NCBI GenBank assembly: GCA_036227345.1
Contig: CP109468.1
Location: 8,122,001-8,186,000 of the forward strand
From: Streptomyces sp. NBC_01463
GTDB lineage: Bacteria > Actinomycetota > Actinomycetes > Streptomycetales > Streptomycetaceae
Direction of reading: 5' to 3'
DNA length: 64,000 nucleotides
Position 1 is the first letter of the stretch. Each line of letters opens with the position of its first letter. The notes below the pieces were generated by a model. It saw only the letters and a program-made list of their open reading frames with translations. It ran no database searches and had not been told where the DNA came from. A program made the position numbers and the translations under genes. Shown piece by piece: positions 8,927 to 32,856 of this stretch.

Positions 8927-8964
8927 GGGGTTCCTCCTCAGCGTAGGAATGGAGCGACGCCCAG

Positions 8965-8983
8965 TAAAGCAAGGCTTACCTTA
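8965..8983. promoter_or_regulatory. DmdR/IdeR iron box upstream of cchA
   Basis: TAAAGCAAGGCTTACCTTA matches 13 of 19 positions of the consensus TTAGGTTAGGCTAACCTAA. It lies 39 bases upstream of the cchA start, the usual place for Fe(II)-dependent repression. Confidence 0.7.
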
Positions 8984-9069
8984 TCGTGCAACGGGCGCAC
9001 GATTTGCCCCAGTTGAACGGCATCGGGGCGAGGTATGTCCGGAACCCGCCTATCGACAGCGTCACAGGA

Positions 9070-9088
9070 TTAGCTTAGGCTCACCTAA
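9070..9088. promoter_or_regulatory. DmdR/IdeR iron box upstream of cchB
   Basis: TTAGCTTAGGCTCACCTAA, 17 of 19 positions of the consensus and the best match in the window. It lies 85 bases upstream of the cchB ATG and probably governs the cchB-E operon. Confidence 0.9.
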
Positions 9089-9173
9089 GTTCATCGGGAC
9101 GCTCTGTCGGCGTGCCCGTCTTTCACACGTTCCCCACACCTGACAGGCGGCGTCCCCGCACGATGGGAGTGAC

Positions 9174-10529: not shown

Positions 10530-10594
10530 CGCGGTCACCACCTGTTCGGACCGTCCTGCGGAGCGAACGGATCAAAGGGATAACGTACGTCGAC

Positions 10595-13598: not shown

Positions 13599-13623
13599 GT
13601 CTCGAACACGGGAATTACGCCAG

Positions 13624-13642
13624 TTAGGCTAGGCTGCCCTCA
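13624..13642. promoter_or_regulatory. DmdR/IdeR iron box upstream of cchF (distal)
   Basis: TTAGGCTAGGCTGCCCTCA, 15 of 19 positions of the iron-box consensus. It is 30 bases upstream of a second, weaker box. Confidence 0.8.
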
Positions 13643-13653
13643 TTCATTCGAGG

Positions 13654-13672
13654 TAAGGTTTGGCTGCCCTTA
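13654..13672. promoter_or_regulatory. DmdR/IdeR iron box upstream of cchF (proximal)
   Basis: TAAGGTTTGGCTGCCCTTA, 14 of 19 positions, with outer dyad GTAAGG/CCTTAC. It lies 40 bases before the cchF ATG. Centre-to-centre distance to the distal box is 30 bases, nearly three helical turns, which would place two repressor dimers on the same face. Confidence 0.75.
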
Positions 13673-13712
13673 CACAGGGGCCAGTGGACAGTGCGAACGC
13701 AAGGGAATCCGG

Positions 13713-14771
13713 ATGCTCATCCATAGAACGATGCTCACGAAGCCCTGGCAGCGGGTGGCGGCGACGGTGTCCGCCGCGGCCCTCGGCATCGGCCTCCTGG
13801 CGGGATGCGGTTCCGACTCGAAGGACGAGACGGACAAGGCGAGCGACAAGGCCCCGGCCGCCGCCGGTGCGTTCCCGGTCACCGTGGAGCACGCGTTCGG
13901 ATCCACGAAGATCACCAAGGCCCCCCAGCGGGTCGTCTCCGTCGGCTACACGGACGACCAGACCATCCTGGCGTTCGGCATCAAGCCGGTCGGCATGGTC
14001 GACCAGTACCCGAACCCCGAGGGCAAGACCCCCGACGTCAACACCCAGTGGCCCTGGGTGAAGGACAAGTGGGGGGACGCCCGCCCCGAGGTCATCATGA
14101 AGAACGGTGACTCCGGCCCCAACTACGAGAAGATCGCGGGCCTCCGCCCGGACCTGATCATCGCGGTCTACTCGGAGATCGACCAGGCCGCCTACGACAA
14201 GCTGTCGAAGATCGCCCCGACGGTTGGCCGCACCAAGGCGGAGAAGGAGCCCTTCAGCGCGCCCTGGCAGGACAACGCGCTGCACATCGCCAAGGCCCTC
14301 GGCAAGGAGAAGGAGGGCAAGGAGATGGTGAGCGGCATCCAGACCCAGCTGGACGCCGCCGCGAAGGCGCACCCCGAGTTCGCCAAGCAGACCGCCGTGG
14401 CGCTGTCCTGGTACGACAACTCCGTCGCGCCGTTCACCACCACCGACGTCCGTGGACGCCTGCTGACGGGCATCGGCTACAAGGGCGCCACCGAGATCGA
14501 CAAGATCGCCGGCGGCAAGTTCTACACCAAGCTGTCACCCGAGCGCATGGACCTCGTCGACGTCGACCGCATCTTCGTCATCAACGACAAGGCCGACCAG
14601 GAAGCCCTGAAGAAGTCCAAGCTCTTCGCCAACCTCAAGGCGGTCAAGGAGGGACGCGTGTCGTACCTCCTCGACGGCGAGGGCCCGGCGGTCGGTGCCG
14701 CCATCTCGCAGGGCACGCTGCTGTCCATGCCGTACGCGATCGACGAGCTCGTCAAGTCGGCCGGCCAGTGA
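13713..14771 (+). CDS. cchF: CchF, siderophore-binding lipoprotein
   Basis: A 352-aa extracellular lipoprotein that captures ferric coelichelin and hands it to CchC/CchD. The lipobox LLAGC puts the lipidated residue at Cys32. The mature part is a FepB/FhuD-type cluster A-8 binding protein: PQRVVSVGYTDDQTILAFGIKPVGMVDQY near 75-100, then GLRPDLIIAVYSEIDQAAYDKLSKIAPTV near 145-172. The ATG at 13713 has AAGGGA six bases upstream. The gene has its own promoter with two iron boxes, so binding protein can be expressed apart from the permeases. Confidence 0.95.
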   Translation: MLIHRTMLTKPWQRVAATVSAAALGIGLLAGCGSDSKDETDKASDKAPAAAGAFPVTVEHAFGSTKITKAPQRVVSVGYTDDQTILAFGIKPVGMVDQYPNPEGKTPDVNTQWPWVKDKWGDARPEVIMKNGDSGPNYEKIAGLRPDLIIAVYSEIDQAAYDKLSKIAPTVGRTKAEKEPFSAPWQDNALHIAKALGKEKEGKEMVSGIQTQLDAAAKAHPEFAKQTAVALSWYDNSVAPFTTTDVRGRLLTGIGYKGATEIDKIAGGKFYTKLSPERMDLVDVDRIFVINDKADQEALKKSKLFANLKAVKEGRVSYLLDGEGPAVGAAISQGTLLSMPYAIDELVKSAGQ

Positions 14772-14811
14772 GGTCCGCGCCGTCCCGCCCCCTACCTGAA
14801 CTGGCCCACGT

Positions 14812-16599
14812 GTGAGCACCACCGCGACCCGCATCCCCCCGGCGACCCTGCGTACGGCGACGGGGGGTGAGGCCACCCGATGGCTCGCGGCACACTGTCG
14901 CGAGGTGCCGTGGCTGAGTGCCGCGACCCTGTTCACCACGGTGGCCGGGGCGGCGCTCCAGGTACTCCCGGTGCTGTTGCTGGGCCAGGTGGTCGACGGG
15001 GTCGTGGACGGCGAGTCACGCGCGGTCCTGGTCAGGGTCGGAGTGCTGATGGTGGCCGCCGCCCTGCTCGGTGCGGCGGCCACCGCGGCCTCCACGTATC
15101 TGATCGGGCGGCTCGGCGCGGACCTGCTCGCCCGGCTGCGGGAGGGCGCGGTCCGCGCGGTGCTCGGCATGCCGAGCGCGCGCATCGAACAGGTCGGCCG
15201 GGGGGACGTGCTGTCCCGGGTGGGCGACGACGTGGCCGTGCTGTCCCGGGGCATCAGGTCGGCCATCCCCACGGTGTTCTCGGCCGGGGTGCTGGTCACC
15301 ATCGCGACCGCGGGCATGTTCGGACTGGACTGGCGGCTCGGCCTGGCGGGAGCCGGCGCGCTGCCGGCGTACGCACTGGCCCTGCGCTGGTACCTTCCCC
15401 GCTCCGCGCCGCTGTACAAGAAGCAGCGGGCCGCCCAGGCCGACCGGGCACAGGCGTTGATCAGCGGTCTGAACGGGATCGAGACCGTCCGGGCCTACCG
15501 CCTCGAAGGGGCCTTCCGCGAGAAGGTCACGAGCGAGTCGTGGCGGGTGCGTGAACTCGGTATCGAGGTCTTCCGGTTCTTCGGCCGCTTCGTCGGCAGG
15601 GAGAACCGCGCCGAGTTCATCGGCCTGGTCCTGATCCTCCTGGTCGGCTACGCGCTGCTGGAGGGCGACGCGGCCACCCTCGGCGAGGTCTCGGCCGCCC
15701 CGCTGATGTTCCACCGGCTCTTCACCCCGCTCGGCGCCATCATGTTCACCTTCGACGAGGCACAGAAGTCGGGCGCCAGCCTGACCCGTCTGGTCGGGGT
15801 GCTGGCGGAGGACGCGGAGGACCGCCTGGTGGGCGATGCCACCGTGGCGGCGGCGGACGACGTGCCCTATCAAGTCACCGTCGAGGGGCTGACGTTCAGC
15901 TATCCCGACACCGAGGACCCGGTCCTGCGGGATGTCAGTCTGACGATTCCGGCCGGTGGTTCACTCGCTCTGGTCGGGGCGACCGGTGCGGGCAAGTCGA
16001 CCCTGGCCGCACTGATCGCGGGCATCGGCACACCACAGGCCGGTTCGGTGCGCATCGGGCCGAACGACCTCGCCGGAATGGACGAGGCGGGGGCCCGGGC
16101 CCTGGTGAGCATCCTGACCCAGGAGACACACGTGTTCTCCGGCCCGCTCGCCGACGACCTGCGCCTCGCCGCGCCGGAGGCGACCGACGCCGATCTGGTC
16201 GCGGCGCTGCGCACGGTCGGCGCGGGAGCGTGGACCGACGCGCTGCCCGACGGGCTGGGAACCCTGGTCGGCGAGGGCGGCGAACGCCTGGACGTCACCA
16301 AGGTCGCCCAGATCGCGCTGGCCCGGCTGGTGCTGGCCCGTTCGCCCGTCGTGGTGCTGGACGAGTCGACGGCGGAGGCGGGCAGCGAGGGCGCCGCCGA
16401 GCTGGAGCGGGCCGTGCTGGCCGCCTGCGCGGGCCGCACCACGCTGTTCGTGGCGCACCGGCTGACCCAGGCGATGGCCGCGGACCGGATCGCCGTGCTG
16501 GACGCGGGGCGTGTGGTGGAACAGGGCACGCACGACGAGCTGGTGGCCCTGGGGGGCCGGTATGCGCGACTGTGGCAGGCTTGGCGCGAAGGTAGTTAG
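14812..16599 (+). CDS. cchG: CchG, ABC exporter half-transporter with degenerate signature motif
   Basis: A 595-aa fusion of a six-helix export-type membrane domain (about 30-320) and an ATPase domain (about 350-590), expected to export coelichelin. Walker A GATGAGKST (Lys about 395), Q-loop ILTQETHVFSG, Walker B VVVLDESTAEAG and switch His FVAHRL are intact. The signature motif is not: LDVTK (about 493-497) replaces LSGGQ. Its partner CchI has the mirror-image defects, so the two almost certainly form a heterodimer with one working ATP site. The GTG start at 14812 lacks a clear ribosome binding site; coupling to cchF (40-base gap) is possible. Confidence 0.93.
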   Translation: MSTTATRIPPATLRTATGGEATRWLAAHCREVPWLSAATLFTTVAGAALQVLPVLLLGQVVDGVVDGESRAVLVRVGVLMVAAALLGAAATAASTYLIGRLGADLLARLREGAVRAVLGMPSARIEQVGRGDVLSRVGDDVAVLSRGIRSAIPTVFSAGVLVTIATAGMFGLDWRLGLAGAGALPAYALALRWYLPRSAPLYKKQRAAQADRAQALISGLNGIETVRAYRLEGAFREKVTSESWRVRELGIEVFRFFGRFVGRENRAEFIGLVLILLVGYALLEGDAATLGEVSAAPLMFHRLFTPLGAIMFTFDEAQKSGASLTRLVGVLAEDAEDRLVGDATVAAADDVPYQVTVEGLTFSYPDTEDPVLRDVSLTIPAGGSLALVGATGAGKSTLAALIAGIGTPQAGSVRIGPNDLAGMDEAGARALVSILTQETHVFSGPLADDLRLAAPEATDADLVAALRTVGAGAWTDALPDGLGTLVGEGGERLDVTKVAQIALARLVLARSPVVVLDESTAEAGSEGAAELERAVLAACAGRTTLFVAHRLTQAMAADRIAVLDAGRVVEQGTHDELVALGGRYARLWQAWREGS

Positions 16600-16614
16600 G
16601 TAAGCCTTAGTTAA
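16596..16614. promoter_or_regulatory. DmdR/IdeR iron box upstream of cchH
   Basis: TTAGGTAAGCCTTAGTTAA, 14 of 19 positions. It overlaps the cchG stop codon and ends 42 bases before the cchH ATG, giving the NRPS-exporter pair cchHI its own iron-controlled promoter. Confidence 0.8.
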
Positions 16615-16656
16615 ACTGGCTTGGTCGCATATCTCGGACGGGAAGCGGAGTCTTCG

Positions 16657-19600
16657 ATGTTGGAAACGGGCGCTCGCCTCGCACTGCTCTCTGCCGCGGG
16701 CCTGGCCGGTCTGCGCAGGCGCACCGGTGACTACGAGGACCGGACCCTCGCCGAGGCGTGCGCCATCGGCCTGTCCTACTGGGCGACCGGCCGGAGCCCC
16801 GACGGCATAGAACTCACCCCCGCCACCCTGTTCGCCGACGTGCTCGGCTGGGCCGACAACGGCGGCCGCGCACCCGCCGGCTGGGAGGCCGGCGCGGACG
16901 GCCGGACCATCGCCGTCCCCGAAGGCGTCCCGGCCGCCGATGCGCAGCGCGCCCTGGACGACCTCGCCGACTTCCCCGACCGGCCGCTCGGAACCATCGG
17001 CCCGTCCGGCGCCGCCGAACGCGTCGAGACGCTGGCCCGCTGGAACGACACCGAGGCCGGGCGGGAGCGCCCGACCGTCGTGGAGATGTTCCGCGAACAG
17101 GCGAGGACCCGGCCGGACGCCGTCGCGATCGTCGACGAACACCGGTCGCTGACCTACCGTCAGGCGGCCGAGCTCTCCGCCCAGTTGGCCCACCACCTGA
17201 CCCGCGGCGGACTCGCCGCCGAGCAGGTCGTCGGCATCTCGCTGGGCCGCTCCGCCGACATGGTCATCGCCCTGCTCGGCGTGCTCCAGGCCGGCTGCGC
17301 GTTCGTCCCCCTCGACCCGCAGTGGCCCGCCGCGCGCCGTGCGGTCGTCGTCGAGGACGCCCGCGTCGTGCTCCAGCTCAACGCATCGGGCGAGAGCGCC
17401 CCGGGCGAACCGGACGCCGTGGCCGTCGACCTCGGCGACTGGCGGTTCGCCGCCGAGCCCGCCGAGGCCCCCGAGGTCGTCGTGCCCGGCCCCGCCCTGG
17501 CGTACGTGATCTTCACCTCCGGCTCGACCGGCCGCCCCAAGGGCGCGATGATCCGTCACGAGGCCATCAGCGAACGCCTGTTGTGGCAGTCCCGCGAGAT
17601 CCTCGGCTTCGGTCACGACGACGCGTCACTGTTCAAGGCACCGCTGTCCTTCGACATCTCCATCAACGAGATCTTCCTGCCCCTGGTCTGCGGCGGCCGG
17701 CTGGTGGTCCTGCGGCCCGGCGGCGAACGCGACCCGCACCACCTGCTGAGCGTGATAGCCGGGCAGCGCGTCACCTTCACCTACCTGGTGTCGTCCATGC
17801 TGGACGTCCTGCTGGAGATCGCGGGGGAGTCCGGGCGGCTGGACAGCCTGCGGCACGTGTGGTGCGGCGGCGAGGTCCTGACCCCCGAGCTCTACGAGCG
17901 CTTCCGCACCCGCCTCGACATCCCCATGTACCACGGCTACGGCCCCGCCGAGACGACGATCGGCGTCTCGCACGTCATCTACCGGGGCGCCGCCGAACGC
18001 CTGTCGACCTCGATCGGCAAGGCCAACCCCAACACCCAGCTGTACGTCCTGGACGACGAGCTGCGCCCGGTCCCGGTCGGGGTCGGCGGCGAGCTGTACG
18101 TGGGCGGCTTCCTGCTGGGACGCGGCTACGTCAACGCGGCCGGCCTCACCGCCTCCCGGTTTGTGGCGAACCCCTTCGCCGCCGACGGCTCCCGGCTCTA
18201 CCGCACCGGCGACCTGGCCCGGTTCGCCCCGGACGGCTCGCTGGACTTTCTCGGCCGGGCCGACAACCAGATCAAGATCCGCGGCATGCGCCTGGAGATC
18301 GAGGACGTCGAGGCGGGTCTGGCCGAGCACCCCGGCGTACGGCACAGCTGTGTCGTCGCGAAGAAGAACTCGGCCGGGGGCACCTACCTCGTCGGCTACG
18401 TGATCCCCGCCGCCGGGAGCGGGGAACTGCGCGCGGACGACGTCAGGGCCTGGGCCGGCGCGCACATGGTGGAGTACATGGTGCCCGCCCACACCGTCGT
18501 GATGAAGGAGTTCCCGCTCACCGCGAACGGCAAGATCGACCGGGCCGCGCTGCCGGAGCCGGTGCTCTCGGCCGGGCCCGTCGTCGCCCCCACCACCGAC
18601 GACGAGCGCGTGGTCTGCGCGGCCGTCGCCGCGGTGCTCCGCGTGGACGAGGTGGGTGTCGACCAGGACTTCTTCCGGCTCGGCGGAGACAGCATCCTGG
18701 CGATCTCCCTGCTGAGCGCGTTGCGCGAGGCCGGCCTCTATGTCACGGCCCGCCAGATCTTCACCCACAGCGTCCTGGGCGCCCTCGCGGCGGTCGCGAG
18801 CCGCGATGACGTGGCACCGGTCGAGGACGACGACGTGGCGACCGGATCGGTCGTCGGCTCGCCCATCGTGCAGTGGCTCGGCGGAACCACGGACGCCGTC
18901 GACGGCTTCGTGCAGTCCGTGGTCCTGAACACCCCGGCGGAACTCACCGCCGGCACCCTGGACCGGATGCTCACCGCGCTGGTCGCGCGGCACGACATGC
19001 TGCGCGCCAGGCTCGTGCGCGGCGACCGCTGGGGCTTCGACATCCCCGAGGCGGACGGCGCCGTCGCCCGGTGGCAGGAGAGTGACCTGCCGCTCGACGC
19101 ATGCGTCGAGCTCGCCACCGAGGCGCTCGACCCGGACAACGGCGTGATGCTGCGCGCCGTCTGGCGCAGCGAGGCACGCCAACTGGTCCTGGTCGTCCAC
19201 CACGTGGTGGTCGACGGGGTGTCCTGGCGCGTCCTGATGGACGACCTGGCCACGGCCTGGCGGCAGTGCACCGCCGGCGCACCGGTCGAACTGCCCCCGG
19301 TGGGCACGTCGTTCCGGCGCTGGACGGAACTTCTCGGGCGCGCCGGATTCGACGCGGACCGCTCCTACTTCGGACGAACCCTGCCCGGAGCGGACGGGCC
19401 GGTGGGCCGCCGCCCGCTGTCCGCATCCGACACCGTCGCCAAGGAACGGGAGCGCACCCTCTCGGTCGGCCCCGAGATCACCGCTGCGCTGCTGGGCGAG
19501 ATCCCCGCGAAGTTCCACGCGGGCGTCAACGACGTGCTGCTCACCGCGCTCGCCGTCGCCCTCGCGCGCTGGCGGCGCGACCTCGGCCAGGACCAGACGT

Positions 19601-22600
19601 TCGCGCACATCGAGCTGGAGGGCCACGGCCGCGAAGGACGCTTCGTGGCGGACGCCGCCGGCTTCGAGCCCGAACTGTCCCGTACGGTCGGCTGGTTCAC
19701 CACCCTCTTCCCGGTGACCGTCGACCCCGGACCGGCGGCCGACCTCACCTCGCCCGCATACCTGGCCGCCGCGCTCAAGGCCGTCAAGGAGGACCTCTCC
19801 CGGGTCCCCAGCAACGGTCTCTCCTACGGCGCGCTGCGCCACCTCGCCGACACCCGCTTCGACGCGCCCGCACCCCAGGTGCTCTTCAACTACCTGGGCC
19901 GCTTCGACTCGGGCACCTCGGCGGACTGGCAGCCCGCGGGCGCCACCGGGCAGCTGGGCGAGAAGCGCGACCCGAGGATGCGCCTGCCGCGCGCCCTGGA
20001 GTTCAACCTCATCGCCGAACCCGCGGCGGCCGGCACCTACGAACTGGTCACCACCATCTCGTGGCCCGACGGCATGTTCACCGAAGCCGACATCACGGTG
20101 ATCGGCGGGTACCTGCAAGGAGCGCTGGCCGGACTGGCCGCGCTCGACGAGGGCGGCCACTCGCCCAGCGACTTCCCCCTGGTGCCGCTCACCCAGGACG
20201 ACGTCGACACGCTGGACGGCCCCGGACTGCGGGACATCCTGCCCCTCACCCCTTTGCAGGAGGGCCTGTACTTCCACTCGGTCTTCGACGACGAATCGGC
20301 GGGCAGCTACGTCGAGCAGCAGCTGCTGACCCTCGACGGCGAGGCGGACCCGGGCCGGCTCGCCGCGGCGGCGACCCGGCTGCTCGCCCTCTACCCGAAC
20401 CTGGCCGCCCGTTTCGTGGCGCTCGCCGACGGCCGGGTGGTCTCCGTGCTGGAGAGCGGTGCCGAGGCCCCGTTCACCGTCCTGGACCGCCCCGGCATCA
20501 CCGACGAGGAGATCCGCGCGTACGCCGAGCGCGACCGCCGCGCCGGATTCGACCTGGCCACCGGACCGCTGATGCGGTACACGCTCGTCCGCGGGGGCGA
20601 CGGCCGCGACGTGCTGGTGCAGACCGTGCACCACATCATCGCCGACGGCTGGTCGGTGCCGCCGATGCTCCGCACCCTGCTGGCCGAGTACCACCGGCCG
20701 GGCACCGGATACCGCCTCGGCGGGTTCGCCGACTACGTGCACTGGCTCGCCGGCCGCGACGACGCCGAGAGCGACCGCGTGTGGAGCGATGAGCTCGCCG
20801 GACTGCCCGGCCCGTCGCTGGTCGCGGAGGGACACACCCCGTCCGACCGGTTCGCCGACACCATCGTGGAGCCGGCCGACGACATCGACACGGCCGTACG
20901 GTCGGCCGGTGTGCCCCTGAGCGTGGCCGTGCACAGCGCCTGGGCGGTGACGCTCGGCGGCATCCTGCACGGCGACGACGTCGTGTTCGGCTCCACCGTG
21001 TCCGGCCGCGACGCGGACGTCCCCGGCATCGCGGACATGGTGGGTCTGTTCATCAACACGATCCCCGTACGCGCCCGTTGGGCGGCCACCACCACCGCGG
21101 CCGGACTGCTGGCCTCGGTACGGGAGCACCAGAGCGCGGTGCTGCCCCACCAGCACGTCTCGCTGGCGAGGATCGGCCGGCAGACGGGCGTCGACGCCCG
21201 GTTCGACACCCTGGTGGTCTTCGACGTCGCGACCGACGTGGCCGCGCTGCGCGGGCGCGACGACGAACTGGCCGTCACCGGCATCGTCAACGAGGGCGCC
21301 CCGCACTACCCGCTGACACTGGTGGTGGAGCGCGCCCCCGACGGCCGCCCGCGCTTCAACCTGATCTACGACGGCGAGCTGCTGCGGGAGCCGAGCGCGG
21401 AGGCGATCCTGCACACCTTCACCCGCACCCTCACCGCACTGCTCACCCGGCCGGACGCCCTCGTCGGGGAACTGGCCGCCGAGCAGGAACGGCGCCCCGA
21501 GGCCTTCGCACCGACGACCCTGGGCGCACTGTTCGACGCCGCCGCCGGCCGTGCCCCGGCAGCGGCCGCCGTCACCCAGTGCGGACTCGACGGCGGCACC
21601 AGGTCCCTGACCTACGGCGAACTGGCCGCGGCCAAGGACGAACTGGCCGCGCTCCTGCGGTCAGCCGGTGTCGGACCCGGCCGGCGTGTCGCCGTCGCCG
21701 TCCCGCGTTCGCTGGAGCAGGTCTCCGCCCTCGTCGCCATCGTCACCGCGGGCGGCGCCTACGTACCACTGGACCTGGCGTACCCCGACGACCGTCTTGA
21801 GTACATCCTCACCGACGCCGCCCCGCAGGTCGTGCTCGTGAGCCGTGAGCAGAAGGACCGCTTCACCGGGCTCCTGAGCCGGGCGGGAGTGCGGGCCCGG
21901 GTGCTCGTGCTCGGCGAGGAACTGCCGCGGGCGGACGAGCGGGCGCCGGACACCGCCCACCCCGGGGCCCGCCCGCACGATCCCGCGTACGTCATCTACA
22001 CATCCGGATCCACCGGACGCCCCAAGGGCGTCGTCGTCCCGCACTCCGCCGTGGTGACCCTGCTGGCCAACACCCGGCCCGCCATGGGGTTCGGCCCCGA
22101 CGACGTGTGGGTCCAGTTCCACTCGTACTCCTTCGACTTCGCCGTCTGGGAGCTGTGGGGCGCGCTGGTCCACGGCGCCGAACTGCTGGTGCCCGACTAC
22201 GGACTGACCCGGTCCCCGGTCGACTTCCACCGGCTGGTCCGCGAGCGCGGGGTGACCGTCCTCAACCAGACACCTTCGGCGTTCTACCAGTTCATCGAGG
22301 CCGACCGGCACGCCGGTGAACCGGCCACCGCGCTGCGCCGGATCATTTTCGGCGGCGAGGCGCTCGATCCCGTGCGGCTGCGCGGCTGGGTCGAGCGGTA
22401 CGGCACCGCATCGCCCGAGCTGGTCAACATGTACGGCATCACCGAGACCACCGTCCACGTCACCCACCGGGTGCTCACCGACGTGGACTTCGGCGCCGAC
22501 GCCGACGTCAGCCCGATCGGCGGCCCGGTCCCCGGTCTCGACACCTATCTCCTGGACGACCGGCTGCGGCCGGTGCCGCCCGGCCGGGTCGGCGCCATCT

Positions 22601-25600
22601 ACGTCGCGGGCGACCAGCTGTCGCTCGGCTACCTCGGCAGGCCGGGCCTCACCGCCGGCCGGTTCGTCGCGAACCCGTTCGCGGACGACGGCTCCCGGAT
22701 GTACCACACGGGCGATCTCGCCCGCCGTACGCTCGACGGTGAGCTGGAGTTCGCCGGCCGCGCCGACGACCAGGTCCAGCTCAAGGGATTCCGCATCGAG
22801 CTCGGTGAGGTGGAGTCCGCGATCAGGGAACTCGACGGCGTCGTAGACGTGGCCGTCACCGCGGCGGACAGCGGGGACCACCTGATCGCACACGTCGTGG
22901 GCCGGGTGCCCGAGGACCTCACCGGACTCCTGGCCGCGAAGCTGCCCGTGCACATGGTGCCGGGGCAGGTGCGGGGCGTCGACGCGCTGCCGCTGACGGT
23001 CAACGGCAAGCTGGACCGCAAGGCGCTGACCGAGCATGCCGCGCACGACGTCGTCCCGGTGGCCGCGACCGGCTCCGCGCTCGACGCGCTGACCGGTATC
23101 TTCGCCGCCACGCTGCCCGGCTCCGACGCGGACGCCGACACCGACTTCTTCATGGCCGGCGGCGACAGCATCCTCGCCATCACCGTCATCAACCGGGCCA
23201 GGGCGCTCGGTCTGTCGATCGCGCCGCGGGACGTCTTCCTGTTCAAGACCCCGCGCGCACTCGCCGCGCAGGTGGAGACACGGACGCCGCGGGCCGCCGC
23301 ACCCGGGCCCGTCCGCCCCGAGGACGGTCCGCTGATCCCGACGCCGATCATGCTGCGCCGGCGCGAACTGGGCGGATCGCTCGCCCGGTTCGCCCAGGCC
23401 AGGGCGTGGGTGGTGCCCGACGACGCCGGGTTCGCCGACATCGAACGCGCCGCGAACGCCGTCGTGGCCGCGCACCCGGTCCTCCGGCTGAGGCTGGACG
23501 TCCAGCACGGCGTCTGGGCCCTGCGCACCGGACCCCGCCGCGAGGTCACCGTCGTCCCCGCGGACCCGGCCGACGCGGCGGCCGCGGCGAACGACGCCGC
23601 CGGGCGCCTCGATCCCGAGGCCGGCGACGTCATCGCGTTCAGCTGGCTGGCGGCGAGCCGCACCCTGGTGGTCACCGTCCACCACCTCGCCGTCGACGCG
23701 GTGTCCTGGCTGGTCCTGCTCGACGACCTGGCCACCGCAATCGCCGGCACGCCCCTGCCGCCGCCGACCACGTCCTACGCCGAGTACGCCGAGGCACTGA
23801 GCGCCCGGTCCGCCGGGACGGCCGAGGGCCTGGGGGACTGGCTCACGACCCTCGGGGCCCCCGCGCTGCTGCCCGCCGTCGGGAGCCTGCGCGAGACCAT
23901 CGTGGTGCTCCCGCCCGAGGTGAGCGACCGGGTGACCCGTACCGCACCCGCCGTACTCGGCGTCGGCCTCACCGAATTGCTGTGCGGAGCGCTCCGCACC
24001 GCGCTGACCCACGTCCAGCCGGCCCCCACCGACCTCGCGATCGAGCTGGAGCGGCACGGCCGCGTCCCGGCACGCGAACACCACGACTACACCCGAACCG
24101 TCGGCTGGTTCACCGCCATCGCGCCCGTCCGGCTCACGGCGCACACCGACCCGGTCGAGGCCGCCCGCGAACTGGCCGCACGCCAGCCGGACGAGGACGG
24201 ACACCTCGCCTACGGCGGGCTCCGCTACCTCAACCCGCAGACGGCCCCGCTGCTCACCGCCCGCCCCCAGGTGCTGTTCAACTACCTCGGCCGGGGCGGC
24301 GAGTCCCAGGCACCGCGGATCACCGGCGCAGACGAGGGCAGCCCGTACGCCGTCGAGGTCAACGCGTGGACCGACGAGGCCACCGGCAGCCTGCACGCGG
24401 CCTTCACCCTCGCCGACGGCATCGGTGACGAGCTGGCGGGGCACTGGCTCGGCGCCCTGGAACACATCGCCGACGCCGCCACGACGGCCGAGCGCACCGC
24501 ACCGGTCACCCCCCTCCAGCGCGGCCTGTACTTCCAGGCCCAGCTGGCGGGCACGGCCGGACACTACGTCGCGCAGAGCTACTTCGCCTTCGACCGGCGC
24601 CTGGACACCGACGCGCTCGCCGACGCGATGGCGTACGTCATCGCCCGGCACCCGGTCGTCGGCGCCGGCTTCGCCACCGACGACCGCGGAAACCCGGTCC
24701 AGGTCCTCAAGGCGGGCCGGCGGGTCGGCGTCCGCACCGTCCACCTGGAAACGGAGGCGGAGGCCGACGCCCTGCGCGCCAGGGACCGCGACACCGGATT
24801 CGACCCCGGTGAGCCGCCCCTGATCAGGCTGACCGTGGTGCGGCTGCCCGACGGCCGGGACAGGCTGCTGCTGAGCTACCACCTGCTGCTGTGGGACGGC
24901 TGGTCCCGCGAGATCCTGCTGCGCGACCTGTTCGACGCCTACCGGGCGGTCGTCGCCGGCGAGACCCTCGACGCGACCCCGCTCACCCCGGGCTTCGAGG
25001 ACTACGCCCGGACGCTCGCCGCCAGGGACTCCGCCGTGTCGGAACGCTTCTGGGCGGAGCACCTGGACGGACTGACCGGCCCGACGCTGCTCGCCGGACC
25101 GCAGCCGGCCGTCTCGGACGACCTGCCGCGCGCCCTCGTCCACACGATGTCCGCCGAACTGTCCGACCTGCTGCGCGAAGCGGCCCGGGTGCACGGCGTC
25201 ACACTGAACTCGGTGCTGACCGGGGCCTTCGGCCTCCTGCTCGGCGCGCACACGGGCCGCAGCGACGCGGTGTTCGGCGTGACCGTCTCGGGCCGGGAGG
25301 GCGAAGGGCTGTCCGGCATCGTCGGCGTGCTGCTCAACACCGTGCCCATGTGGACGCGGGCCCGGCCTGAACACACGGTCCGGGAGTACCTGACGGCCGT
25401 CCAGACGGCCCGCGTCGACGCGATGGAGCACGAGCACCTCGGGCTCGGCGAGATCCAGCGGGCCAGCGGCCACGACAGCCTGTTCGACAACCTGTTCGTG
25501 CTCCAGAACTTCCTGGACATGGACGCGTTCGCCGCCATGAACAGCAGGCACGGCATCACCTCGGTGAAGTCCGACGACTCGACCCACTACCCGTTCACCT

Positions 25601-27558
25601 GGGTCGTCACGCCCGGCGACCGGCTCACGGTCAAGCTGGAACACCGCGACGACGACCCCGCGGGCGCCCGCCGGCTCCTCGACGACTATCTGCGCGTCCT
25701 GGAGGACCTGGCCAGGTCGACCGGCCCGCTCGCGGCCCTTCCGGGGCCGGGCCCCAGGCCCGAGCCGGGCGTGCGGACGGAAATCGGCACGGACACCGTC
25801 GTCGACCGCTTCGACACGGCGGCCGACCGCGACCCGCAGCGGACCGCCCTCGTCGCCCAGGGCTCGGTCATGACCTTCGCCGGACTCCAGGAGCGCAGCC
25901 GCGCGGTGGCGGGCGTGCTCGCCCGGCGCGGCATCGGACCCGAGACGACCGTGGGTCTCGCGATCCCGCGCTCCCTCGACTCCATCGTGGCGCTGTTCGC
26001 CGTGCTGCGCGTCGGCGCCGCGTACGTGCCGCTGGAGCTGGACCACCCGGACGAGCGGATCGCCGCGATCGTGGACGCCGCCCGCCCCGACGTGATCCTC
26101 ACCGTGAGCGCCGTGTCGCCGCGGCTCACCGGCGACCTGATCGAACTCGACCGCCCGCTGCCCGAGGCGGAGCCGTACACCACGTTCGCACCGGACGACC
26201 CGGACCGGCTGCGCCATCCCGCGTACACGATCTTCACCTCCGGCTCGACCGGGAAGCCCAAGGGCGTGGTGACCGAGTACGCCGGGCTGACCAACATGCT
26301 GATCAACCACCAGCGCCGGATCTTCGAGCCGGTCCTCGCCGACCACGGCCACCGGGTCTTCCGGATCGCCCACACCGTGTCGTTCGCCTTCGACATGTCG
26401 TGGGAGGAACTGCTCTGGCTCGCCGACGGCCACGAGGTGCACATCTGCGACGAGGAACTGCGCCGGGACGCGCCCCGGCTGGTCGCGTACTGCCTGGAGC
26501 ACGGGATCGACGTCGTCAACGTGACGCCGACCTACGCCCAGCAACTGGTGGCGGAAGGACTGCTCGACGACCCCGCACGGCGGCCCGCACTGGTGCTGCT
26601 GGGCGGCGAGGCCGTCACCCCGGCGCTGTGGCAGCGGCTCGCGGAGACCGAGGGCACGGCCGGGTACAACCTGTACGGACCCACCGAGTACACCATCAAC
26701 ACGCTCGGCGTCGGCACCTTCGAATGCCAGGACCCGGTGGTGGGCGTCGCGATCGACAACACCGAGGTGTACGTCCTGGACCCGTGGCTGCGGCCCCTGC
26801 CGGACGGGGTCCCGGGCGAGCTGTACGTATCGGGCGTCGGCATCGCGCGCGGCTACCTCGGACAGCCCGCCCAGACGGCGCACCGGTTCGTCGCGTGCCC
26901 GTTCGGCGGACCCGGCGAGCGCATGTACCGCACCGGCGACCTGGTGGTCAGGCGGCCCGACGGCAACCTGATGTACCTCGGCCGCACCGACCAGCAGGTG
27001 AAGATCCGCGGCCACCGGGTCGAACCGGGCGAGGTCGAGGCCGCGTTCGCGGCCCACCCGGCGGTGCGGTTCGCCGCCGCCGTCGCCCAGCCCGACCCGC
27101 AGGTCGACGGGGCGTACCGGCTGGCCGCCTACCTGGTGCTGGACGGATCGTCCGACCTGGCGGCCGTCGCCGCCGAGGTGGGAGCCGCGCTCCCCGACTT
27201 CCTGCGCCCGACGCACTACGCCGAGGTCGCCGGCATCCCGCTCACCGTGAACGGGAAGGCTGACACCAAGGCGCTGCCGGAGGCCAGGCCGCTAGGCGTG
27301 CTGACCACCGGGACGGAGCGCGCGCCGGAGACCGAAACCGAGATCACGGTGTGCGAGTTCTTCGCCGAAGCACTGGACCTGGACGACGACGAGGTGAGCG
27401 CGGTGAGTGATTTCGTGTCCCTCGGCGGACACTCCATGGTGGCGGTGCGTCTGATCGGGCTGCTCCGCCGGGAGTACGGTCCGGTGATCACGATCCGTGA
27501 CCTGCTCACCCTGCGAACCCCCGAAGCGATTGCCGGTCACCTCGATGAAAACTCCTGA
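16657..27558 (+). CDS. cchH: CchH, coelichelin non-ribosomal peptide synthetase (three modules)
   Basis: A 3633-aa cytoplasmic NRPS read as A-T-E / C-A-T-E / C-A-T. A1 (125-645; TSGSTG near 286) has specificity residues D-I-N-Y-W-G-G-I-G, the formyl-hydroxy-ornithine code. T1 Ser lies near 678 (LGGDSIL) and E1 at 725-1165 ([10 protein letters not shown]). C2 covers 1195-1620 (HHIIADGWS). A2 (TSGSTG near 1781) reads D-F-W-N-I-G-M-V-H, the threonine code. T2 Ser is near 2171; E2 has [10 protein letters not shown] near 2342. C3 has YHLLLWDGW near 2741; A3 reads D-M-E-N-L-G-L-I-N, the hydroxy-ornithine code; T3 Ser is near 3590 (LGGHSM). There is no thioesterase domain, as in known CchH. The first 100 residues resemble no complete domain. 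ATG 16657 follows GCGGAG. Expected product: coelichelin. Confidence 0.96.
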
Positions 27559-29245
27559 CACCCAGCCGCCCCGCCGGGGCGCCGCCATCCTGCGGACCGC
27601 GCTGCGCCGCAACGTCGGCGCGATGGTCTGGGGCACCGTCCTCATGGGCCTGTACCAGGCGGGCGAGACCTCGTTCCCGATCGCGCTCGGCCTGATCGTC
27701 GAGTACACGCTGCAGGACCGGAGCCCCGGTTCGCTGGGGCTCGCGATCGGCGCGCTGGCGGTGATCATCACCACCGTGTCGCTGTCGTGGCGGTTCGGGA
27801 TGCGGGTGCTGCAGAAGGCCAACACGACCGAGGCGCACCGCTGGCGGGTGCAGGTCGCGGAGTGCGGACTCCAGCCCGTGGACCGGGACGTCGATCTGAA
27901 GTCGGGCGAGGTGCTGACCATCGCCACCGAGGACGCCGACTCGACCGCGGACATCATCGAGGTGGTCCCGCTGCTGATCAGCTCGCTGGTCGCGGTGCTG
28001 GTCGCGGCGGTCGCGCTGGGCCTGGCGGACATCCGGCTGGGGCTGCTGGTGATCGTCGGAACCGTCGTGATCCTGTCGATCCTGAGCGTGATGTCCAAGC
28101 GGATCGGCGCCAGTACCCAGGAGCAGCAGGCCCGCGTGGCCCGGGCGGGCGCCAAGGTCGCCGACCTGATCTCCGGCCTGCGCCCGTTGCACGGCTTCGG
28201 CGGGAACCACGCGGCGTTCGTGTCCTACCGCAAGGTCAGCACGGAGGCGAAGCAGCAGGCGGTCACCGTCGCCCGGGTGAACGGTGTGTACGCCGGCGCC
28301 GCACTGGCCCTGAACGCGGTCCTCGCCGCCGCCGTGACGCTGACCGCGGGCTGGCTGGCCTTCGACGGCCAGATCTCCATCGGCGCCCTCGTGATGGCCG
28401 TGGGGCTCGCGCAGTTCATCATGGAACCGCTCAAGATGTTCTCGGAGATGCCGAAGTACGTGATGATGGCGCGCGCGTCGGCCGAGCGGATGGCGCTGGT
28501 CCTCGCGGCGCCGCCGGTGACGACGCCCGGACCGGAACGCCCGTCGGCGGGCGGGGACCTGGAGATCGACGGTGTCCGGTACGGGGCGCTGGCCGGGCTC
28601 AAGATGCGGGTCGCAGCAGGGGAGTTCGTGGCGGTCGCGGCCTACCAGCCGCGTGCGGCGGCCGACTTCGCGTCGATCCTCGCGGTGAACGTCCCGCCGG
28701 ACGACTACGAGGGCGCGGTACGGATCGGCGGGCAGGAGCTCGCCGGGCTGTCGGTCGAGGCGGTCCGCGAGCTCATGCTGGTGAACCCGTACGACGCGGA
28801 GATCTTCGCCGGCACCCTCCGTACGAACATCGACCCGTCCGGGACCAGCCGGATGCTTCCGGAGGCCGTCGAGGCGTCCATGCTGACCGATGTCGTCGCC
28901 CTGCACCGCGAAGGGCTCGACCACGGCGTCCGCGACCGCGGGGCCAACCTGTCGGGCGGGCAGCGTCAACGGCTCTCCCTGGCCCGCGCCCTGGCCGCCG
29001 ACTCCGACGTCCTGGTGCTGCACGACCCGACCACGGCCGTCGACGCGGTCACCGAGCAGCTCATCGCGCGCAACATCGCGAAGGTGCGCCGGGGCCGGAC
29101 CACCGTGGTGTTCACCAGCAGCCCGGCCGTCCTGGACGCGGCCGACCGGGTCCTCGTCCTGGCCGACGGGGTCATCGCGGCCGAGGACACCCATCGCAAC
29201 CTGCTGGCCACCGACGAGGCGTACTGCCTCGCGGTGGCCCGCTGA
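27545..29245 (+). CDS. cchI: CchI, ABC exporter half-transporter with degenerate ATP site
   Basis: A 566-aa export-type ABC half-transporter, ATG at 27545, overlapping the cchH stop by 14 bases, so translationally coupled to the NRPS. Six hydrophobic segments lie within about 25-310. The ATPase domain is unusual. Walker A is lost (AYQPRAAAD near 366-374 in place of GxxGxGKST), the Q-loop Gln is Asn ([12 protein letters not shown]), the Walker B pair is His493-Asp494 ([12 protein letters not shown]), and the switch His is Ser (FTSSPAVL). The signature LSGGQRQR at 469 is perfect. It can therefore lend only its signature, completing the ATP site of CchG. Role: export of coelichelin. Confidence 0.93.
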
Positions 29246-29267
29246 CCGCCCCGACGCCGGGCGGCGG

Positions 29268-30362
29268 TTAACCCAGGGCCCAGGCGACATCCCTGAGCAG
29301 CGGGTGCCGCCAGCCGGCGCGGTCGTGGCCGGCGGCCGACCGGGAGATCCGGACCGTCGCCCCGGCCTGCTCGGTCAGGGCCTCGACCGGCTCGCAGTGG
29401 GGGAGCATCCGGGTCTCGTGTTCCCCCACGTCGAACGCGATCCGCAGACCGGACAGGTCGGGGCGCTCCCGCAGCCGTGCGGCGACGGTGCCGCCCGTCG
29501 GGCCGGCGAAGGGGTCCGGCAGGTCGCCCACGCCGGGGCTCCACCAGAACGACCCCGACTGGCAGGCGACGCGCGAGACCAGCTCCGGGAACTCCAGCGC
29601 CGCGTACAGCGCGCTCAGACCGCCCAGGCTCTGCCCGGCGACCACCAGCCGGTCCGGGTCGGCGGGCACACCGGACTCCGCCACCAGGGGCAGCAGTTCG
29701 TCCCGGACCGCCTCCCACAGCGCGGGGCGGCACGTGAACTCGCCCGCCCGGTCCTTGGCCGGCAGGAAGACGAGCGTGACGGGGGGCAGGTCGCCGGCCG
29801 CCACGGCCGAGTCGAAGGCGGCCGTCGCCGGGTGCAGGTACAGCCAGTCGTCCCCGTCGAGCAGCAGTACCACGGGTCCGCCGCCGCCCACCGGGTGGAC
29901 GCGCACGGTGCGCCGCCCGCCGAGCCGTTCACTGGCCCAGCGCAGCCGGGTGTCCGGCACGGGCAGCACGTCGTCGGCACCGACCAGGGGCCAGTGCGGC
30001 TGGTCGGGCGCGTCCGGGGTCGCGGCGATGGAGCGGTCCAGGCCTGCGCCGGCCGGGTTGAACGGGTCGGCGTACGCCGTGCCGTCCACGAGGAACTGGT
30101 AGGTCACCCGCAGCCGTTCGGGCATGGGCACCTCCGCGTACCAGCAGTCGGTGCGGTCCCATCGGTGCAGAGGGATCTCCGGCGACCAGCTCTCGAAGCC
30201 GAGGGTCGCGGGGGAGCCGCGCCAGAGAAACAGGGTCACCCAGCCGCCGTCGTCGGCCGGCACCGACGCGGGTGTCCGCGCCGCCGCCCAGAACTCGTCG
30301 GACCCGGGTGCGCCGGGCAGGCCGAACGCGGCGAAGGCGTTCTCGGTAGCGGCCGGGGGCAT
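29268..30362 (-). CDS. cchJ: CchJ, siderophore esterase (Fes family)
   Basis: A 364-aa enterochelin-esterase-like hydrolase with ATG at 30362 after AAGGAG. The N-terminal Fes-type domain (about 35-145) has the FLWRGSPATLGF strand. The alpha/beta-hydrolase domain (155-364) carries nucleophile Ser245 (AGQSLGGLSALYAAL), an acid in FDVGEHETRM and catalytic His346 (AAGHDRAGWR). In the coelichelin system CchJ is proposed to release the peptide, since CchH lacks a thioesterase; hydrolysis of the ferric complex after uptake is the other possible role. No signal peptide, so cytoplasmic. It converges on cchI with a 22-base gap and is divergent from cchK across an iron box. Confidence 0.93.
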   Translation of the reverse strand: MPPAATENAFAAFGLPGAPGSDEFWAAARTPASVPADDGGWVTLFLWRGSPATLGFESWSPEIPLHRWDRTDCWYAEVPMPERLRVTYQFLVDGTAYADPFNPAGAGLDRSIAATPDAPDQPHWPLVGADDVLPVPDTRLRWASERLGGRRTVRVHPVGGGGPVVLLLDGDDWLYLHPATAAFDSAVAAGDLPPVTLVFLPAKDRAGEFTCRPALWEAVRDELLPLVAESGVPADPDRLVVAGQSLGGLSALYAALEFPELVSRVACQSGSFWWSPGVGDLPDPFAGPTGGTVAARLRERPDLSGLRIAFDVGEHETRMLPHCEPVEALTEQAGATVRISRSAAGHDRAGWRHPLLRDVAWALG

Positions 30363-30410
30363 GAACGTCTCCTTGTGAGAGGGGCGGAGAAAAGGCTAAG
30401 CTCCATTCGA

Positions 30411-30429
30411 TTAGGGGAGCCTAACCTAA
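30411..30429. promoter_or_regulatory. DmdR/IdeR iron box between cchJ and cchK
   Basis: TTAGGGGAGCCTAACCTAA, 16 of 19 positions. It lies 49 bases before the cchJ start and 83 before cchK, and is well placed to control both divergent genes. Confidence 0.85.
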
Positions 30430-30511
30430 GCTCGGCCTCTCCTTCCATGCACGCTGGACACGCCCGGCGCGGCCGCCACCGGCCCGTCGGACCCAAGGAG
30501 GTACTGACACC

Positions 30512-30724
30512 ATGAGCACCAACCCGTTCGACGATCCCGAAGGCCGGTTCCTGGTCCTGGTGAACGGTGAGGGCCAGCACTCGCTGTGGCCGTCCTTCGC
30601 GGAGGTGCCCGGAGGCTGGACCGTCGCCTTCGAGGAGAACACCCGGGAGGCGTGCCTGGACTTCGTCGAGGCCAACTGGACGGACCTGCGGCCGCGTTCC
30701 CTCGCCGCGTCCATGGACGGCTGA
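30512..30724 (+). CDS. cchK: CchK, MbtH-like protein
   Basis: A 70-aa MbtH-family protein that binds NRPS adenylation domains and is needed for their solubility and activity; the partner here is CchH. The family signature is clear: [24 protein letters not shown] with the paired Trp residues, then [21 protein letters not shown] at 30512 follows AAGGAGG. It probably shares a transcript with the GNAT gene 91 bases downstream. Confidence 0.96.
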
Positions 30725-30815: not shown

Positions 30816-31337
30816 TTGACCACGGCCACGCCGAGGCCCGCCCTCGATCTGCCCGCACTCCGCGTGCCTGCCTCCTCCGTGCGCTTCGGCCGCGCGGAGG
30901 ACGCCGCCGAACTCGCCGCCCTGTCCCGGCCCTTCGTGCGCTCGGGGGCGCTGCGGGAGCGGCCGGTCCCGCTCTACGCCGCCCGTGCGGCCGACTTCGT
31001 GGTGGCCGTGGGCCCCGGAGGGGCGATCGAGGGATGCGTGGGGCTGAGCGTGTACCCGGCCGGTCCGGCGGCGGGCGGTGTGCCCGCGGGTGTGCTGTAC
31101 AACTTCTGTGTGGCCGGGCACTGGCAGGGACGCGGTGTGGGCGCGGTGCTGCTGCGTACCGCGCTGACGCGGGCGCGCACCCGGTCCCTCGGTGCGCTGT
31201 TCACCGCGACGACCGGCGGCGGAAGGCTGTTCCAGCGCTACGGATTCACTCCCGCGGCTGCCCGGCTGGCGCCCCGGGCCTGGGCGGATTCACTGGATCC
31301 GCGGCGCGACGCACGCATCCTCGCGAGGGCCGTGTGA
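30816..31337 (+). CDS. GNAT N-acetyltransferase resembling N-acetylglutamate synthase (ArgA type)
   Basis: A 173-aa GNAT enzyme with TTG start at 30816, chosen because AGGAAGGAAAG sits six bases before it and no good ATG or GTG exists. The pattern RPFVRSGALRERP, acetyl-CoA-binding CVAGHWQGRGVGAVLL, ALFTATTGGGRLFQRYGFTP and the tail ADSLDPRRDARILAR follows the acetyltransferase domain of bacterial N-acetylglutamate synthases. It would make N-acetylglutamate from glutamate and acetyl-CoA, the first step to ornithine. The neighbour on the opposite strand is acetylglutamate kinase, the second step, which supports this reading. An alternative is acetylation of hydroxy-ornithine, but coelichelin carries formyl, not acetyl, groups. 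Confidence 0.75.
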   Translation: MTTATPRPALDLPALRVPASSVRFGRAEDAAELAALSRPFVRSGALRERPVPLYAARAADFVVAVGPGGAIEGCVGLSVYPAGPAAGGVPAGVLYNFCVAGHWQGRGVGAVLLRTALTRARTRSLGALFTATTGGGRLFQRYGFTPAAARLAPRAWADSLDPRRDARILARAV

Positions 31338-31378
31338 AGCGGCGGGGGGCCGTGGCGCCCCGCCCCTGACGCCGCAGG

Positions 31379-31405
31379 CCGGTCCGCGGCGCGCCCGCGG
31401 ACCGG
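31379..31405. terminator. Bidirectional terminator between GNAT and argB paralogue
   Basis: Arms CCGGTCCGCGG and CCGCGGACCGG, 11 bp perfect with a 5-base loop, between two convergent genes. Confidence 0.85.
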
Positions 31406-31408
31406 GTG

Positions 31409-32260
31409 TCACACGGTGCTCAGGTCGCGGTCCTGACCGGCGCCGGGCGCGACGGCGACGCCCGGAACCACCGCGGTGCCGGGGCTGTTCTCGCCGAGCG
31501 TGCCGCGCAGCACCGCGTGCGGCACCCGGCCGTCGAGCACCTGCGCCCTGGGCACACCGCCGCGCACGGCCCGCAGGCAGCCCTCCATCTTCGGCAGCAT
31601 CCCGCTCGCCAACCGTGGCAGCAGCTCGTCCAGTTCGTCGGCCGTCAGGCGCTCGATCACGTCGGTGCTGTGCGGCCAGTCCGCGTACAGCCCCGCCACG
31701 TCGGTGAGCATGACCAGCCGTTCCGCGTCGAGCGCCACGGCCAGGGCCGATGCCGCGAGGTCCGCGTTGACGTTGTAGACCTGTCCGTCGTCGCCGCGGG
31801 CGACGGGGGAGACCACCGGGATGTGCCCCTGTGCCAAAAGGGTGCGCACCATGGCCGGATTCACGTCCACGATGTCCCCGACGAGGCCGATGTCCACCGG
31901 GCGGCCGTCCACATGGGCCTGTCTGCGCACCGCCGTCATCGTGTGCGCGTCCTCGCCGGTCATACCGACGGCGAACGGCCCATGGGCGTTGATCTGGCCG
32001 ACCAGCTCCCGCTGGACGCGGCCGGACAGCACCATGCGCACCACGTCCATGGTCTCGGGCGTGGTCACCCGCAGGCCCGCCTCGAAGCGGGTCTCCAGCC
32101 CGAGGCGGTCGAGCATCGCGCTGATCTGCGGCCCGCCCCCGTGCACGACGACCGGCCGCAGGCCCGCGTGCCACAACTCCACGACGTCCTGGGCGAAGAG
32201 CCGTTGCAGGCCCGCGTCCACCATGGCGTTGCCGCCGAACTTGACGACGACCGGTCTCAT
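31409..32260 (-). CDS. argB: Acetylglutamate kinase paralogue lacking the N-terminal regulatory helix
   Basis: A 283-aa N-acetyl-L-glutamate kinase (ATP-dependent, second step from glutamate to ornithine). All core motifs are intact: VVKFGGNAM at residues 4-12, [10 protein letters not shown], the [19 protein letters not shown] segment, [38 protein letters not shown] and [13 protein letters not shown]. The protein starts directly at strand 1: an in-frame TGA lies six codons upstream of the ATG, so no N-terminal extension is possible. Canonical arginine-inhibited ArgB proteins carry about 20-30 residues before this strand, forming the helix for hexamer assembly and feedback inhibition. An iron box lies 24 bases upstream. 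Inference: an iron-starvation-induced, arginine-insensitive enzyme that raises ornithine for coelichelin. Confidence 0.9.
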
Positions 32261-32284
32261 GCCTGTCCACCCCGTTCAGAGAAG

Positions 32285-32303
32285 TCAGGTTAGCCTAACC
32301 TGA
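32285..32303. promoter_or_regulatory. DmdR/IdeR iron box, perfect dyad, upstream of the argB paralogue
   Basis: TCAGGTTAGCCTAACCTGA is a perfect palindrome around a central C and matches 16 of 19 consensus positions. It ends 43 bases upstream of the argB paralogue ATG when counted from its far edge. Confidence 0.88.
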
Positions 32304-32847: not shown

Positions 32848-32856
32848 CGCCGGACC

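Follow-up and report, generated by a model that had tools for sequence, protein, structure and literature searches.

Organization of the locus

The window analysed is a 64 kb stretch of the 9.07 Mb genome of Streptomyces sp. NBC_01463 (contig CP109468.1, positions 8 122 001 to 8 186 000). It contains a coelichelin-type siderophore cluster, which is adjoined by the two genes studied here, a paralogue of argB (argB2) and a gene encoding a GNAT protein (Table 1). The cluster carries genes for a formyltransferase, an N-oxygenase, uptake components of the FecCD, ABC and binding-protein types, ABC exporters, a non-ribosomal peptide synthetase (NRPS), an esterase and an MbtH-like protein. The NRPS is trimodular, with three condensation and three AMP-binding domains. 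A trimodular NRPS together with N-oxygenase, formyltransferase, uptake, export, esterase and MbtH genes is the content of a coelichelin cluster, an assignment made on gene content. Past the MbtH gene, the GNAT gene is followed by argB2 in convergent orientation, and the stop codons of the two are 71 bp apart. Relatives of argC, argJ and argD were searched for across the whole window and gave no match over half their length. Copies hidden elsewhere in the window were thereby excluded, and the absence of dedicated argC, argJ and argD genes, claimed in an earlier prediction made from this DNA (the original prediction), was borne out.

Table 1. Positions of the pair, the iron boxes and the adjoining cluster in the window
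Feature	Position	Strand	Evidence
argB2, a paralogue of argB, for an acetylglutamate kinase that lacks the N-terminal helix	31409..32260	−	TIGR00761, 243.3 bits; nine catalytic positions; dN/dS 0.20–0.35
ArgB2 codons 251–262, where the primary enzyme has the arginine-site motif LLEIFTDEGIGT	31475..31510	−	Alignment; motif from passages of PMC4490483
GNAT of N-acetylglutamate-synthase type, convergent with argB2	30816..31337	+	Sequence matches; predicted fold
Iron box TCAGGTTAGCCTAACCTGA, perfect 9+1+9 dyad, 25 bp before the argB2 ATG	32285..32303	.	Palindrome scan
Iron box between the esterase gene and MbtH	30411..30429	.	Palindrome scan
Iron box at the divergent formyltransferase and N-oxygenase genes	9070..9088	.	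Palindrome scan
MbtH-like protein, directly upstream of the GNAT	30512..30724	+	Pfam MbtH, 95 bits
Coelichelin-type siderophore cluster	7979..30724	.	Domain content

ArgB2 and the arginine sensor

ArgB2 (283 amino acids) starts at an ATG that is the first possible start after an in-frame stop, and its N-terminus reads MRP followed by VVVKFGG. The stop, a TGA, lies six codons upstream of the ATG, so an N-terminal extension is excluded; on this the list of open reading frames and the sequence agree with the original prediction. With a stop in this position, the possibility that the short start is an annotation artefact was rejected. Relatives were collected from 295 genomes of the genus Streptomyces (G and L numbers denote genomes and loci). 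The ArgB2 line was set at 72% identity, with the addition of an interrupted 87% copy in G180, and copies at 64–69% identity were taken as primary enzymes. In L043, L059, L076 and L079, the frame ahead of VV(V/I)KFGG is also open for just 9–12 codons.

The match of ArgB2 to the argB model TIGR00761 lies above the cut-off (243.3 versus 151.3 bits), and its scores with LysW-type models lie under theirs. Nine catalytic and substrate-binding positions are identical to those of all 21 sampled primary enzymes, and are the same in all 79 aligned ArgBs (21 primaries and 58 ArgB2; the interrupted copy, L100, was excluded, hence 58 of 59). The dN/dS of the window copy was 0.20–0.35 against seven close relatives. 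The closest solved sequences are arginine-sensitive hexameric kinases, with the Mycobacterium enzyme at 303.7 bits; the E. coli kinase (1gs5) reaches 94.2 bits. The reading of ArgB2 as an E. coli-type kinase was therefore rejected on sequence grounds. The original prediction had likened it to that type; its sequence places it as a derived member of the arginine-sensitive line.

ArgB2 is not the only ArgB of the genome. A search found a primary argB in an argJ-argB-argD block (C1:7315912), whose product has both the N-terminal arm LPKAQILIEALPWLTRHNGK and the arginine loop LLEIFTDEGIGT; the original prediction, which would have fallen without a second argB, survived this search. A third, more distant argB-like kinase is encoded at C1:1501540. 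This amino acid kinase gene stands between semialdehyde dehydrogenase and M20 peptidase genes (L003 329–3449 = C1:1500040–1503768), and its locus looks like one for LysW-type (amino-group carrier protein) biosynthesis.

Removal of the whole N-terminal helix from the Pseudomonas kinase was reportedly found by Fernandez-Murga and Rubio in 2008 to abolish inhibition by arginine. According to a passage of one paper, an N-terminal extension of 19–38 residues is present in all arginine-inhibitable kinases (PMC3329491). Insensitive kinases have been described as having no mobile helix, and a review gives the arginine-site motif as E-(L/I)-(F/M)-(T/S)-X-X-G-X-G-T (PMC4490483). The window ArgB2 has neither element: the helix is absent, and the motif is broken by changes of E to G and G to S. 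Helix, judged throughout by sequence pattern, and motif Glu were both present in the 21 primary enzymes, and the motif was kept in 27/27 further primaries. Ten of the 58 uninterrupted ArgB2 copies have helix and Glu, and these are exactly the 10 near an ornithine-oxygenase gene (65% identity or more to its counterpart in L088). Among the remaining 48, neither the Glu nor an intact helix motif was found in any; a helix remnant was seen in 14.

In the 48 Glu-less copies, the motif was less conserved than the core (0.71 versus 0.885), whereas in the primaries it was more conserved (0.99 versus 0.92). The 10 helix-bearing copies were intermediate (0.78 versus 0.88). Arginine insensitivity of ArgB2 is thus supported independently by a broken motif besides the absent helix, and the alignments indicate that selection acts on ArgB2, though not for the sensing of arginine. 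The residue preceding the lost Glu (ArgB2 codon 252; loci L043–L099) is Arg in 44/48 derived copies and Leu in 21/21 primaries. An Arg side chain placed close to the empty site for arginine may not be a matter of decay alone.

Iron boxes

Three sites in the window lay within three mismatches of the iron-box palindrome; shuffled sequences had a mean of 0.00 (n = 100). The perfect dyad announced upstream of argB in the original prediction was located 25 bp from the ATG, and the same spacing is repeated in L043, L059, L076 and L079. argB2 has a 19-bp box near its start, as expected of a DmdR-type regulon. For the survey, a box was allowed at most four mismatches, with the centre free. The 4.2 kb upstream of ArgB2 contained one in 56 of 59 loci (the misses being L081, L094 and L095) and in 71 of 72 (the miss being L227). 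In 54/59, it was at most 700 bp from argB or from a same-strand isochorismatase, argC or argJ gene; the corresponding figure for the GNAT was 36/48. No box was found upstream of the 21 primary argBs (18 loci with about 2.9 kb or more of upstream sequence, three with 0.4–1.5 kb), in 131 kb of primary arg loci, or in 20 mononucleotide shuffles of the window. The box at 30411–30429 would also serve the GNAT if this gene is co-transcribed with MbtH. Neither ornithine nor argB is mentioned in passages of a paper on the DmdR1 regulon of S. coelicolor (PMC12161575).

The GNAT

The GNAT frame opens at a TTG and encodes 173 amino acids. It was missed by a GC-based gene finder, and the reality of the gene rests on its homologues. 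It matches the N-acetylglutamate synthase profile solely over the GNAT part (294–440 of 441), and its best sequence match in the Protein Data Bank is the Neisseria N-acetylglutamate synthase (E 0.0002). A structure model built from 44 sequences (pLDDT 82) was compared with 350 542 chains using Foldseek, and ranks 1–7 were N-acetylglutamate synthases (Neisseria, Mycobacterium ArgA and Vibrio). A second aligner, VIA-align 2, also placed synthases at ranks 1–4, with many other GNATs close behind. Likeness of a predicted fold to synthases shows no function by itself.

The CoA motif (R/Q)-X-X-G-X-(G/A) is present, with Q104, G107 and G109 invariant in the 44 sequences. The carboxylate-binding Arg316 and Arg425 of the Neisseria enzyme correspond to R49 and R164, which are likewise invariant; residues were mapped by sequence alignment and an inferred numbering offset of 20, and the roles in the Neisseria synthase of the motif, base and ligand are those given in passages of PMC4490483. 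Fold, CoA motif and the two arginines are features shared with the GNAT domains of the Neisseria synthase (2r8v) and Mycobacterium ArgA (5yge); the GNAT differs in having no attached kinase-like domain and in the replacement of Glu353 and Ser427. Descent by copying of the cell's own short ArgA was rejected, as tblastn against its locus (L008) gave nothing real (15 bits).

Linkage and distribution in Streptomyces

The GNAT was found in 59 of the 295 genomes, ArgB2 in at least 59 and the coelichelin exporter in 70. GNAT and ArgB2 co-occurred in 54 genomes, 48 of them with the two within 12 kb (Fisher p = 4e-47, a statistic in which related genomes are not independent). Within 20 kb of the 70 coelichelin loci, ArgB2 was present at 31, the GNAT at 33 and both at 30. 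A second, named set, which partly coincides with the first, was built from the GNAT as query and comprises the best 80 of 108 relatives. Here, ArgB2 lay within 10 kb in 72/80 GNAT loci; coelichelin genes were present in 51/80, and 45 of those 51 had ArgB2. In the two overlapping sets, GNAT and argB were on opposite strands in all 120 loci holding both, with the GNAT on the 3′ side in 117.

The original prediction had proposed a survey of other coelichelin clusters for the same pair. The pair does recur (30/70 loci), but it is not universal, with 34/70 genomes lacking ArgB2 among the matches listed. ArgB2 is not exclusive to coelichelin either, as for 28 of the 59 listed copies there is no coelichelin locus within 20 kb. 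The G157 copy is cut by a contig end. In Streptomyces himastatinicus (G180; L100 / L179), ArgB2 near the coelichelin genes is broken by two in-frame TGA codons and the GNAT frame is open. Outside Streptomyces, relatives of the GNAT and of an amidohydrolase stand together in Salinispora pacifica (L232), with no ArgB2 within 10 kb.

Origin of the pair

In relatives, ArgB2 belongs to argC-J-B-D operons. The argC, argJ and argD products of L065 exceed the equivalog or subfamily cut-offs for these families. Intact argCJBD with the GNAT adjoins coelichelin genes in L065–L068, L072 and L074, the GNAT being convergent in L065–L068, and the GNAT accompanies argCJBD away from coelichelin genes too. Some ArgB2 operons (L088, L090 and L092) have NRPS-like genes and an ornithine-oxygenase gene nearby, and ArgB2 is found in iron-transport loci with an amidohydrolase (L080 and L082). 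Among the 31 coelichelin-linked ArgB2 loci, 8 retain argC, J or D and 23 have argB alone. Of the 39 coelichelin loci without a nearby ArgB2, 38 were examined (L123, L127 and L128 being cut by contig ends), and none had argC, J or D, apart from one 34% ArgD-like match. No named GNAT locus had C, J or D without B (0/80).

In a tree, the primaries formed one clade (100/100), and the 48 Glu-less copies grouped (100/97) apart from the helix-bearing ones. The window falls in a clade of 25 rows (100/99), 23 of them coelichelin-linked by label, in which L048 alone keeps C and J. The window pair therefore looks like the remnant of an iron-boxed argC-J-B-D and GNAT module that has lost argC, J, D and a leading isochorismatase gene and kept argB, the GNAT and the boxes, and not like a piecemeal recruitment.

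Other genes accompany argB2 and the GNAT. Module companions include a lone isochorismatase, an Amidohydro_3 enzyme and a 72-amino acid protein that matches no family, several of them under iron boxes. Companion genes lie at L065 5766–7573 and 12775–13482, and similar genes are found in many ArgB2 loci. In the window, argB2 is flanked by a DUF4440/SnoaL-like gene and a molybdopterin oxidoreductase gene (32401–35322). In L043 and L044, the oxidoreductase gene recurs some 9 kb upstream of argB2.

Other ArgB paralogues

Twenty-six further ArgB paralogues were taken from 26 genomes selected because each gave several matches; for two of the matches listed, no locus was obtained. The alignment excluded L241 and L242, which are ArgB2, and the counts excluded L288, which is partial. 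In this set, primaries were defined by the N-terminal arm, so that the arm is circular as evidence and the Glu is not. The motif Glu was absent in 21/26 (Q 9, G 6, A 2, P 2, S 1 and D 1, the D of L257 falling at an alignment gap) and kept in five. The helix pattern was found in 14/26, and seven catalytic positions were intact in all 26. Well-supported branches of a tree of 105 sequences force at least six changes at the Glu site, some of which may be regains. An N-oxygenase-like gene (46–52% identity over 30% or more of its length) adjoins eight of the 26. From these sequences, such paralogues seem to lose arginine control recurrently. One ArgB from another clade (L285, G128:C2:1928345–1929136) lacks the helix, has Gly in place of the motif Glu and is encoded about 23 kb from a coelichelin exporter gene; it is possibly a separate case of the same solution.

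Proposed function and alternative explanations

From the anatomy of the locus, the sequence losses, the recurring boxes, the linkage and the relationships, we infer repressor binding, the enzyme activities, arginine insensitivity and an effect on ornithine flux. When iron is scarce, the iron-dependent repressor would leave the boxes. The cell would then make ArgB2 and, probably together with MbtH, the N-acetylglutamate-synthase-like GNAT. With its catalytic site but without the sensor (helix, loop Glu and Gly), ArgB2 would allow the second step from glutamate to ornithine to proceed in the presence of arginine. The primary, sensor-bearing ArgB would serve ordinary growth, and the primary operon would supply the argC, argD and argJ steps. 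The extra ornithine would be hydroxylated and formylated for coelichelin. The original prediction withstood the computational tests by which it might have been overturned. We consider it rather probable that the pair acts in this manner, as an iron-controlled, arginine-desensitized ArgB2 and a synthase-like GNAT that boost ornithine for the siderophore.

Several observations weigh against this ornithine boost. The GNAT scores far under the synthase cut-offs tested, which were those of the whole two-domain enzyme and the short PRK07922 (36.4 versus 344, 33 versus 202.85 and 22.9 versus 180 bits). The proposed general base Glu353 and the substrate ligand Ser427 are replaced by Val93 and Ala166. 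The resemblance to N-acetylglutamate synthase asserted in the original prediction thus holds for fold, CoA motif and two arginines, and fails for the profile cut-offs, Glu353 and Ser427. By its title, the 5yo2 structure of Mycobacterium ArgA, a synthase made up of a GNAT domain alone, contains L-arginine; arginine could therefore still be sensed by the GNAT itself. On the kinase side, most of the 10 copies that have the helix carry a substitution at the first Gly of the motif, which places their arginine sensitivity also in doubt. The two genes are parted in at least four genomes: G150, G165 and G196 have the GNAT but no listed ArgB2, and the argB of G180 is interrupted. G039 likewise has the GNAT without a listed ArgB2, and ArgB2 occurs without a listed GNAT in G004, G015, G052, G072 and G143. 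Since 34 of the 70 genomes with coelichelin genes have no listed ArgB2 (four of the 34 keep the GNAT), ArgB2 is accessory and the product does not require it. Our confidence is slightly reduced by the replacement of Ser427 and by the altered Gly of the helix-bearing relatives.

The weak profile scores leave some room for a GNAT that acetylates another amine, e.g. hydroxyornithine or a siderophore intermediate, and is not a synthase, with ArgB2 alone raising ornithine. This is doubtful, though of the alternatives it is the one to be taken most seriously. Against it stand the N-acetylglutamate synthases at Foldseek ranks 1–7 and in the top four places of the second aligner, the invariance of the two arginines that bind the substrate, and the presence of the GNAT beside argCJBD away from coelichelin genes. 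Synthase activity is likely, given the sequence features and the modelled fold. For ArgB2, a different substrate outside the ornithine pathway would fit its long divergence (64–69% identity to the presumed primaries). It is hard to reconcile with a score well over the argB cut-off and under the LysW-type ones, with unchanged catalytic positions, and with relatives in which ArgB2 stands between argJ and argD and, in L065, the argC, J and D products pass their cut-offs; we regard it as very improbable.

Alternatively, argB2 and the GNAT could be decaying leftovers of another siderophore cluster that once adjoined the coelichelin genes, with arginine control lost without selection and little contribution made today. 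The loss in the window of argC, J, D and the isochorismatase gene, which relatives retain, agrees with this, as do the interrupted ArgB2 of G180 and its absence among the matches listed for G150, G165 and G196, which keep the GNAT. Decay is not, however, what the low dN/dS and the invariant catalytic positions suggest, and the iron boxes and the convergent pair recur across the 25-row clade. Moreover, since the 38 ArgB2-less coelichelin loci keep no argC, J or D (the one ArgD-like match aside), the gene that survives is argB and not a random one. Such a relic is unlikely.

Known systems and significance

Dedicated copies of the ornithine pathway have been described in other NRPS clusters. Passages of PMC9866976 name the lunaemycin genes lun11–14, the stenothricin genes StenJKLM and himastatin HmtB, where, as at the present locus, copies that include argB accompany a peptide using an ornithine-derived residue. 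The lunaemycin cluster has the full argC-D-B-J set, for piperazate, whereas the window has argB and the GNAT, iron boxes and a lost arginine sensor; on arginine control those passages are silent. They also name the qinichelin cluster as holding glutamate-to-ornithine genes. Set against this description only, it is likewise a siderophore cluster with its own ornithine genes, of which the window keeps just argB and the GNAT, and we infer that it is likely to be close to the ornithine-oxygenase clusters L088, L090 and L092.

Compared with the arginine-sensitive hexameric kinases of Mycobacterium, Pseudomonas and Thermotoga, to which it is closest among solved sequences, ArgB2 has lost helix and motif. 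The E. coli kinase, insensitive to arginine according to a passage of PMC3329491, also lacks the N-terminal helix, but it is distant in sequence and the two reached the helix-less state separately. In Aspergillus fumigatus, passages of PMC3688985 report that ornithine synthesis rises in iron starvation, suggest arginine feedback as a limit, and state that loss of the kinase-reductase gene lowers siderophore. That fungus regulates its primary pathway, whereas the system described here uses a separate paralogue. No description of a reduced, desensitized and iron-boxed pair was found among the titles and abstract beginnings searched, a scope from which subscription literature was mostly absent.

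The paralogues together suggest a wider rule, for which we see even chances. Arginine control may have been removed repeatedly when ArgB paralogues joined peptide clusters that consume ornithine; the siderophore version would have been pared to the two steps that are targets of the brake (the desensitized kinase and the synthase-type GNAT) and put under iron control, and the two proteins may work jointly as a split counterpart of the fused synthase/kinase. For the ArgB paralogues of peptide clusters, the prediction is that feedback resistance is frequent. Enzymes with graded loss of the allosteric helix would form a useful set for allostery studies and for producing ornithine. If the ornithine boost is real, the pair would be a natural, conditionally expressed analogue of the feedback-resistant acetylglutamate kinase with which strain engineers raise ornithine, governed by the same iron switch as the siderophore that it serves. 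It makes testable how a cell supplies a siderophore precursor without upsetting its arginine control.

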